From Endobacter medicaginis (lineage in GTDB: Bacteria; Pseudomonadota; Alphaproteobacteria; Acetobacterales; Acetobacteraceae), in assembly GCF_014192375.1 (NCBI RefSeq), contig NZ_JACHXV010000008.1, positions 1-64,000 of the forward strand: a stretch of DNA of 64,000 nucleotides. The letters are read 5' to 3'. The position numbers and the translations under genes were made by a program. The stretch's first letter is position 1. The number at the start of each line of letters is the position of its first letter. The notes beneath the pieces are model-generated. The model had not been told where the DNA came from, did no database searches, and worked only from the letters and a program-made list of their open reading frames with translations. Below are positions 5,845 through 7,762 of this stretch, in pieces.

Positions 5845-6705
5845 ATGCGCCCGCTTCCGCAAGACACGATCGCACCCCTCACCGAGGTTCGCCCGCCGCG
5901 GCTGCTCCCGCCTGCCGCTCGGCCGGTGCCGGTCCTGATCACCTCGCCCCATTCCGGTACGGACTACATCCCCGATTTACTGGCTCAGACCCGCCTGCCG
6001 CTCGCCCGGCTGCGCGCCAGCGAGGACAGCCTGGTCGACCAGCTCGTTGCAGGTGCACCACAACTCGGCGCCACCGTGCTGTGCGCCAATATCCCGCGCG
6101 TGTTCTGCGATCTCAACCGCGGCCCATGGGAGCTCGACCCGGCGATGTTCGTCGAGACTCTGCCCGGCTACTGCGACACCGCCAGCCCGAGAATCGGCCA
6201 AGGCTACGGCACCATCGCCCGCTTCGCCGCAGCGGGCGACCACATCTACGGCCATCGGCTGCGATTTTCCGAAGCCCAGCACCGAATCGCCGCCTACTGG
6301 CAACCCTTCCACCATACACTCCGCGTCACGATCGAGTCGTTGCAGGCCCGTTTCGGCGCCTGCCTGCTGCTCGACTGCCACTCGATGCCCCGCTCGCATG
6401 CCACCGACCCCGACCTGGTCTTCGGGGACGCCTTCGGCACCAGTGCCGCTCCCGCCCTGCTGCGGGTCGCCGAAAGCGTGGCCGCCGAAGCCGGCCTGCG
6501 CACGATCCGCAACCAGCCCTACGCCGGCGGCTACATCACGCGTCATTACGGTCGACCCGAGGCCAATATCCACGCCATCCAGATCGAGATTGCCCGGCCG
6601 CTCTACCTGCAGCGCGGCACCTATCAGGCAGGTCGCGGCTTCTCGCGCATCCGTTCCCTGATTGAGGCGCTGGTCGCACGCATGATCGCCGAAATGCGCG
6701 CCTGA
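5845..6705 (+). CDS. N-formylglutamate amidohydrolase family protein
   Basis: Member of the FGase family, zinc amidohydrolases whose named activity is hydrolysis of N-formyl-glutamate to glutamate and formate in histidine breakdown. The 286 residues show VLITSPHSGTDYIP with the first metal-ligand His, SEDSLVDQL, IPRVFCDLNRGPWELDP with the conserved Asp-Leu-Asn-Arg, LLLDCHSMP with a second His, and a late HAIQIEIARPLYL. No other hut genes lie in the window, so the natural substrate is uncertain. Family members outside hut clusters may act on other N-acyl amino acids. The ATG lies only 27 bp from the 5' end of the oppositely oriented tRNA-Val. Confidence 0.85.
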   Translation: MRPLPQDTIAPLTEVRPPRLLPPAARPVPVLITSPHSGTDYIPDLLAQTRLPLARLRASEDSLVDQLVAGAPQLGATVLCANIPRVFCDLNRGPWELDPAMFVETLPGYCDTASPRIGQGYGTIARFAAAGDHIYGHRLRFSEAQHRIAAYWQPFHHTLRVTIESLQARFGACLLLDCHSMPRSHATDPDLVFGDAFGTSAAPALLRVAESVAAEAGLRTIRNQPYAGGYITRHYGRPEANIHAIQIEIARPLYLQRGTYQAGRGFSRIRSLIEALVARMIAEMRA

Positions 6706-6721
6706 GCGCCGCACATACGGC

Positions 6722-6750
6722 AAAAAAAAGCGGCGCCCGAAGGCACCGCC
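6722..6750 (-). terminator. Intrinsic terminator of the small RNA
   Basis: On the minus strand the sequence reads GGCGGTGCC, loop TTCG, GGCGCCGC, then eight Ts (plus-strand A run at 6722-6729). The stem has one mismatch-type pair and a stable UUCG tetraloop. No minus-strand protein gene lies upstream to need it, which supports a dedicated RNA gene. Confidence 0.8.
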
Positions 6751-6798
6751 AAGTTTAGGGAGGAAACGTCCAAGACGGCGTGCAAAGCAGCACCGTCG
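6722..6798 (-). ncRNA. Putative small RNA with anti-Shine-Dalgarno linker
   Basis: The minus strand between two plus-strand genes has all parts of a short transcription unit of about 77 nt. A promoter at 6805-6833 is followed by a first hairpin (6774-6797, GACGG...CCGTC with an inner TGC/GCA pair). Next comes an unpaired linker whose core is TTTCCTCCCTAAACTT (6752-6767), then a strong terminator hairpin and eight Ts. CCTCCC is complementary to ribosome binding sites. This layout, with CCUCC exposed between two stems, is known for several alphaproteobacterial trans-acting sRNAs. I cannot assign an Rfam family from memory with certainty, and no protein frame fits the interval. Confidence 0.7.
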
Positions 6799-6804
6799 AG
6801 AACA

Positions 6805-6833
6805 GATCTAGAGCGGCCTGCCGAAAGCGTCAA
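6805..6833 (-). promoter_or_regulatory. Sigma-70-type promoter for the small RNA
   Basis: On the minus strand, -35 TTGACG (6828-6833) and -10 TAGATC (6805-6810) are separated by exactly 17 bp. A start about 7 nt downstream places the first transcribed base near 6798, just before the first hairpin. Confidence 0.65.
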
Positions 6834-6934
6834 CCGTTTTTTGCACTGCACAAAGAGAAAAAATCACCGACGCACTATCGATGATTGAAAGGCGTTAACC
6901 CGGCGCTAACCCGGATCGGCGATGGTCTCGGACA

Positions 6935-7762
6935 ATGTCCTTCCACCTCGCCCTCCGCGCGGCCCTCGTCGGGCTGCTGTCCGCTCTCCTCATGATCGCA
7001 AACGTCCGCCCGGGTGCTGCGCAGACGGCGACGGGCGGCGCATCCATCCTCTGCCACATGGCCACCGCCGCCGCGGAGCGCAGCAACGGCGTGCCCGATC
7101 AGCTTCTCGACGCCATCAGCCGCGTCGAATCCGGTCGCCTCGATTCCGCGACCGCAACCATGCGTGCCTGGCCATGGACCATCAACGCCCAGGGGATCGG
7201 CCATTTCTATGCCAGCAAGGCGGAGGCGATCGCCGCAGCCCAGCAATTCCGCGCCCAGGGCATCCAGTCGATGGATGTCGGCTGCATGCAGGTCAACCTC
7301 ATGTACCATCCTGATGCCTTCGCCTCTCTCGACCAGGCCTTCGACCCGCAGGCCAACGCTCTGTATGCCGCCCATCTCCTGACCCAGCTCTTCGCCCAGA
7401 CCGGAAGCTGGCCACACGCCGCGGCCGCCTACCATTCGCAGACCCCCGAACTCGGCAACGACTACCAGCGCAAGGTTCTCGAGGCCTGGGCGGAGCCCGA
7501 GGATACGCCGCACGGCAGACCCGCATCTGAGCGCCGCGCCCGAACACCCTCCGCTGCACCTGAACTCTCATCGCAGTTCGCCAGCCTCGGCGCCGGCGTC
7601 GGGCCGGTCCCCCCCAGCGGCGGCCCCCTGCTCGGCGGCATCGGTCGCATCATCCGCAACTCCGGACCCGTTCAGACCCATGTCAGCGGTCAGGGCCTCG
7701 CGGCCTATCGCTCGATGCCGATCGCGATGGTTGCCTTCGCCGGTCAACGCCGCCCCGACTGA
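6935..7762 (+). CDS. Exported lytic transglycosylase (SLT domain) protein
   Basis: A 275-residue protein with an N-terminal signal peptide (hydrophobic residues 9-22, probable cleavage after PGAAQ near 30), so periplasmic. The SLT/lysozyme-like domain spans about 35-190. Glu65 in ISRVESGR is the likely catalytic acid, followed by [27 protein letters not shown] and [15 protein letters not shown], all typical of transglycosylases that cleave peptidoglycan. The C-terminal 80 residues are low complexity and rich in Pro, Ser and Gly, possibly a linker or anchoring tail. It stands alone, with no flagellar or secretion genes beside it, so the structure it serves is unclear. The first ATG after the small-RNA promoter region was chosen. 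Confidence 0.85.

Follow-up and report, generated by a model that had tools for sequence, protein, structure and literature searches.

To which family does the small RNA (sRNA) gene on the minus strand between positions 6722 and 6833 belong, what might its RNA act upon, and what controls its promoter? These questions arose from a preliminary description of the window (the whole stretch of 64,000 nt analysed here), which proposed a trans-acting RNA with an anti-Shine-Dalgarno linker and left its family to be settled by a covariance search against Rfam.

The small RNA gene and its family

The cmscan search identified RF00519 (suhB/MmgR, alpha-R8), which matches positions 6715-6786 of the minus strand over model positions 1-77. 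Its score of 49.2 bits exceeds the gathering score of 41 (E = 4.3e-07 across the window), and the family question is thereby answered. Other Rfam sRNAs stayed far below their gathering thresholds in a lax scan (sbrA: 20.9 of 45 bits; Atu_C3: 19.9 of 100; ncS025: 18 of 46; Atu_C7: 16.4 of 45). Among the control genomes the model matches Caulobacter, a known holder of the family. It also responds in Thermus composti, outside the Alphaproteobacteria; one or the other of these two exceeds the cut-off, and the Thermus match is likely due to chance or contamination. As alpha-R8 genes do in most species (PMC12559287), the copy in the window adjoins a gene for N-formylglutamate amidohydrolase (FGase), here convergent (5845..6705, plus strand; PF05013, 232.5 bits), while a divergent SLT-domain, lytic-transglycosylase-like gene lies on the other side (6935..7762, plus strand; PF01464, 35.7 bits). 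The family, its usual locus and the anti-Shine-Dalgarno 10-mer have already been published, and novelty of the sRNA itself is not supported.

The predicted transcript of about 76 nt (6722..6797, minus strand) rests on the RF00519 match and, for its 5' end, on promoter spacing: a -35 box TTGACG with 5 of 6 consensus positions (6828..6833) and a weak -10 box TAGATC with only 3 of 6 (6805..6810) are separated by 17 bp, which places the start near 6797. The promoter-consensus scan did not list this TTGACG/TAGATC pair. A 5' hairpin is predicted by folding at 6774..6797, followed by the core TCTTGGACGTTTCCTCCCTAAACT (6752..6775), near-invariant in an alignment of 50 homologues, and by the intrinsic terminator at 6722..6750, supported by a terminator scan and by covariation, with a 9-pair stem and UUCG loop (6750-6729) and a run of eight T (6729-6722), at which the minus-strand RNA would end. 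The spacing, hairpin, UUCG cap and T run are all present as first described. The linker between the two hairpins, CUUGGACGUUUCCUCCCUAAACU, holds CCTCCC, and within it the 10-mer UUUCCUCCCU (TTTCCTCCCT in DNA; 6757..6766) equals the core given in PMC12559287 and is the presumed pairing seed. This linker had been called unpaired; CCTCCC does lie inside the 10-mer, which is predicted to be mostly but not fully so (mean unpaired probability 0.72 in the window and 0.77 across 51 sequences). Nor is the minus strand strictly empty otherwise, as had been stated, since a mechanical open reading frame (ORF) of 75 aa spans 6624-6851. Folding of 6715-6840 gives z = -2.34 (2 of 200 shuffles as good) and of the sRNA alone z = -4.55 (against 60 shuffles); terminator-like sites are common by themselves, with 2 found against 1.0 expected in 2.2 kb.

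For comparison we used FGase loci, the best 80 of 313 confirmed ones, mostly titled as Acetobacteraceae, Rhodospirillales or genera belonging there, so that the bacterium of the window is itself most likely a member of the Acetobacteraceae. The complement of the 10-mer, AGGGAGGAAA, occurs within 700 nt downstream of FGase in 50 of the 80, which may be a lower bound because in three of the other 30 (L037, L040, L042) GGGAGGA lies farther off, beside the transglycosylase gene. Two of the loci come from records with non-proteobacterial titles, L107 from one named Nostoc sp. (NZ_JAIVFV010000206.1) and L036 from one named Terriglobia, although both resemble the loci of Acetobacteraceae. L107 also carries the sRNA 10-mer and two dyads of the kind described below; both assemblies are likely contaminated. 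The alignment has 50 distinct rows, window included, from loci selected by the exact 10-mer, the invariance of which thus holds by construction. Its flanks, TCTTGGACG and AAACT, are invariant or nearly so. The two stems had been expected to covary, and the alignment does not contradict this. In the terminator covariation is clear: 98.9% of the helix cells are paired, 7 of 9 pairs show two-sided changes among the 50 homologues, and the covariation score was reached by none of 500 shuffles. The 5' stem cannot be aligned pair by pair; since its sequence differs between lineages, what is conserved seems to be the inverted repeat and not the letters. In all 50 sequences the 38 nt in front of TTGGACG have a better fold than the mean of their own shuffles (mean z -2.68; z <= -2 in 36). 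In the window this stretch is unremarkable, with z = -1.23 and 10.5% of shuffles doing as well. The homologues are related, so that conservation and the site counts given below are not independent observations.

The genome (G000; 3.63 Mb in 61 contigs, rated 100% complete) contains two alpha-R8 copies. The second (G000:C4:81122-81205, minus strand; L002 1501-1584) scores 37.4 bits, under the gathering score, and has the exact 10-mer; it adjoins an ORF that reads like a prolyl-tRNA synthetase. Elsewhere, with E <= 0.001 as the limit, RF00519 has matches in 39 of 60 relatives and in 107 of 190 genomes of the class. The strong 5' hairpin of the window sRNA stands upstream of CUUGG, whereas the GG of the Rfam consensus is part of a short hairpin, which would contain one non-standard pair here (RF00519 alignment). 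An exposed anti-Shine-Dalgarno motif like that of the window sRNA is presumably carried by NfeR1 (alpha-r14) as well.

Among the characterized relatives, MmgR of Sinorhizobium meliloti resembles the window sRNA in the RF00519 score above the cut-off, in length (77 nt there; PMC8401924) and in the anti-Shine-Dalgarno 10-mer. SisA-D of Caulobacter crescentus share UUUCCUCCCU and the arrangement of an FGase-linked copy with at least one paralogue; however, four alpha-R8 copies are present there and two here, one of them below the gathering score. NfeR1 is assigned to the alpha-r14 family (PMC7143759). Exposed anti-Shine-Dalgarno motifs also characterize SmelA075 and SmelA099 (PMC3927594), but there the motif is CCUCCUCCC and sits in three or four hairpin loops, whereas the window sRNA has a single linker.

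A PhaR-operator-like dyad at the promoter

A feature absent from the preliminary description is the dyad TTGTGCAGTGCAAAA (6839..6853, minus strand), 5 bp upstream of the -35 box, which resembles a PhaR operator by both a matrix and a consensus pattern. Directly upstream of it, at 6862-6886 of the minus strand, a hairpin with a T-rich tail resembles a second terminator and may insulate the sRNA promoter. The link between PhaR (AniA) and mmgR is known in S. meliloti (PMC12542648; reviews PMC8401924 and PMC7143759), where PhaR binds the mmgR site CAATTGTGCACCGCAGCATTA in EMSA (PMC12542648); PMC6520949 refers to this link as a precedent in the case of Methylorubrum. A PhaR-type dyad at the promoter is a further likeness to mmgR, with the difference that it lies upstream of the -35 box here and at 13 from the start site in S. 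meliloti. Among the matches listed, none describes a PhaR-type operator at an alpha-R8 gene of any genus other than Sinorhizobium, although the conserved dyad of Ceizel-Borella 2018, as relayed by the review PMC8401924, may already cover relatives. For SisA-D, PMC12559287 reports no conserved upstream motif, whereas the FGase-linked copies analysed here share the PhaR-like dyad.

The symmetric 15-bp matrix was built from ten S. meliloti PhaR sites of Table 3 in PMC12542648, mmgR being excluded; the sites (eleven with mmgR) were our own choice from the table, other sites of which, some of them on efficiently bound fragments, were omitted. The dyad in the window scores 24.3 bits and is the sole site of at least 12 bits within the 64 kb. 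With at most two mismatches, the consensus pattern occurs at five places in the 3.6 Mb genome against three for a reversed control, so PhaR-like sites are not strongly enriched genome-wide. Only two places have one mismatch, the dyad 6839-6853 and L119 1501-1515 (G000:C8:94874-94888). Next to the latter, the ORF lists show divergent frames resembling those of a sugar kinase and an ABC-transporter permease; this site is possibly a PhaR target outside the metabolism of PHB. At the four consensus places other than the dyad (L119-L122), the adjoining ORFs in the ORF lists have no evident tie to PHB. The genome does encode PhaR, as a protein with PF07879 and PF05233, so that the regulator and a YGCRNYGCR dyad at the sRNA promoter are both present; autoregulation of phaR was considered and rejected, as the 14 kb around the gene contain no site of at least 12 bits.

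The dyad is a regular companion of FGase-linked copies (49 loci and the window; L077 was left out for its short upstream DNA): 50 of 50 have a site of at least 11.2 bits and 44 one of at least 15. The same loci furnished 2541 random control segments, of which 12 have at least 11.5 bits and 5 at least 15; dinucleotide shuffles reach 10 bits in 4.9% and 15 bits in 0.6% of cases, and none of 200 column-permuted matrices reached the observed count of copies. A second site of at least 12 bits, which the window lacks, is found in 23 of the 50, often over the start, as is the case for mmgR in S. meliloti. Of 29 FGase loci that lack the sRNA nearby, none has a site of 15 bits within 400 nt (L065, too short, was omitted). 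Five other-family loci among the 30 of the relatives search (L003, L004, L007, L011 and L022) scored from -1.3 to 14.3 bits. For the second copy in the genome, L002, the best upstream site has 9.0 bits, which we take as no operator; the two alpha-R8 copies are thus probably under different control.

Across the class we picked 40 copies, one per genome, each the best listed match. Sites of at least 15, 12 and 10 bits occur in 13, 20 and 27 of them (half, 20 of 40, remaining under 12 bits) against 0, 0 and 1 of the 40 downstream control stretches, and the consensus core YGCRNYGCR is found in 31 of 40 copies against 8 of 40 controls. Sites are rarer where the regulator was not found: with 20 further loci, again picked by us at one per genome and leaving out the sRNA-bearing genomes without PhaR G099, G120 and G124, sites of at least 10 bits occur at 2 of 16 loci from genomes in which PhaR (PF07879) was not found and at 39 of 58 with PhaR (p = 0.0001). 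At seven of those 16 no core is recognisable, and these loci are possibly not true copies; without them, and with a recognisable core required throughout, the counts are 2 of 9 against 38 of 57 (p = 0.016). Restriction to the exact core gives 2 of 7 against 38 of 57, which is not significant (p = 0.063). The two exceptions are L024 (G033, 82% complete) and L168 (G102, 100% complete). At the level of whole genomes, the 60 relatives comprise 36 with both sRNA and PhaR, 18 with neither, 3 with the sRNA only and 3 with PhaR only, and the 190 class genomes 90, 64, 17 and 19, respectively; this co-occurrence is suggestive, being expressed in raw counts that ignore ancestry and genome size.

Mode of action and alternative explanations

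The idea of a trans-acting RNA that covers ribosome-binding sites likely holds, by analogy with Caulobacter SisA of the same family, the 10-mer of which pairs with a 5' UTR, regulation being abolished by the C40G change; SisA represses several mRNAs, with pairing near the start codon, and its interaction with CrfA is Hfq-dependent (PMC12559287). As the genome has an hfq gene, the window sRNA may act alike: together with Hfq, UUUCCUCCCU would pair with G/A-rich ribosome-binding sites and lower the translation of several mRNAs. Apart from the two sRNA genes, AGGGAGGAAA is found without mismatch at three places in the genome, and at every one of them a frame-opening ATG follows 2 to 5 nt later: at L113, a GNAT-like gene (PF14542), at L116, an ORF without a Pfam match, and at L117, another such ORF in a phage-tail-like cluster. 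The start codons are our reading, as the mechanical ORF lists begin farther upstream. We regard all three as candidate targets, proposed from sequence, while noting that strong Shine-Dalgarno sites would look alike. Phasins were rejected as targets, since the genome has no Phasin_2. As for the promoter, its layout suggests that PhaR probably binds the dyad just upstream of the -35 box and sets the transcription of the sRNA, most likely as a repressor, the role reported for it at S. meliloti mmgR. Altogether, we consider it highly probable that this is an FGase-linked alpha-R8 sRNA that silences ribosome-binding sites and has a PhaR-controlled promoter.

Three other explanations have to be weighed against this one. 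The level or action of the sRNA might be set mainly by a partner RNA rather than by PhaR, given that the sponge CrfA inactivates Caulobacter SisA through the same 10-mer (PMC12559287); yet elsewhere in this genome the 10-mer has three exact complements, each just before a start codon and none in an evident sRNA (exact matches only), and we deem such control improbable. Little short of that in probability, and likewise improbable, is the proposal that the dyad 6839-6853 serves the divergent transglycosylase gene and leaves the sRNA outside PhaR control. Its location between two divergent transcription units would be in keeping with such a role, and a relative of the gene lies inside the fetched stretch at 28 of the 50 homologous loci with the sRNA. 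However, a dyad of at least 15 bits is found at 17 of the 21 loci in which the gene was not found as well as at 26 of the 28 with it, so that it does not simply follow the transglycosylase gene. Seven transglycosylase loci have no sRNA within 700 nt of FGase; three of these have no dyad, three combine a dyad with GGGAGGA, and L033 has a dyad without a recognised core.

That the sequence is a relic, family-like but no longer transcribed, is the least credible of the three and in our opinion very improbable; the weak -10 box would fit such decay, but neither the spacing nor the stems, the core or the terminator shows damage, and all are conserved among relatives.

PhaR without a detected PHB synthase

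In S. meliloti the effects of MmgR concern phasins and PHB, deletion of the MmgR core reportedly raising the levels of both (review PMC8401924), whereas the genome analysed here, rated 100% complete, matches neither a PHB synthase nor Phasin_2: at E <= 0.001 it yielded no candidate for PhaC_N (PF07167), no match to the class III synthase (TIGR01836) and none to Phasin_2 (PF09361). The synthase and the Phasin_2 phasins that an MmgR-like control of PHB would need were not detected, although a synthase too divergent for the models, or a gap in the assembly, is possible. Of the 36 genomes in which the sRNA and PhaR occur together, 5 lack a PhaC_N match (G000, G003, G026, G042 and G044); G000 and G044 are rated 100% complete and the others 90-93%. 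The sRNA-PhaR pair can thus occur without detected PHB synthesis. We speculate, quite tentatively and with more doubt than conviction, that the association of PhaR with the alpha-R8 sRNA is an old regulatory unit of the Alphaproteobacteria and has outlived PHB storage, a unit in which PhaR reads another signal, or serves as a standing repressor, and acts through the sRNA.

What this analysis adds to the published family is a conserved PhaR-like operator, predicted from sequence, that persists without a detected PHB synthase. With it, an observation on PhaR and mmgR made in one species, S. meliloti, becomes a testable prediction for much of the class, and a genome that has the regulator, the dyad and the sRNA but lacks a detected PHB synthase is well suited to finding out what PhaR senses in the absence of granules.
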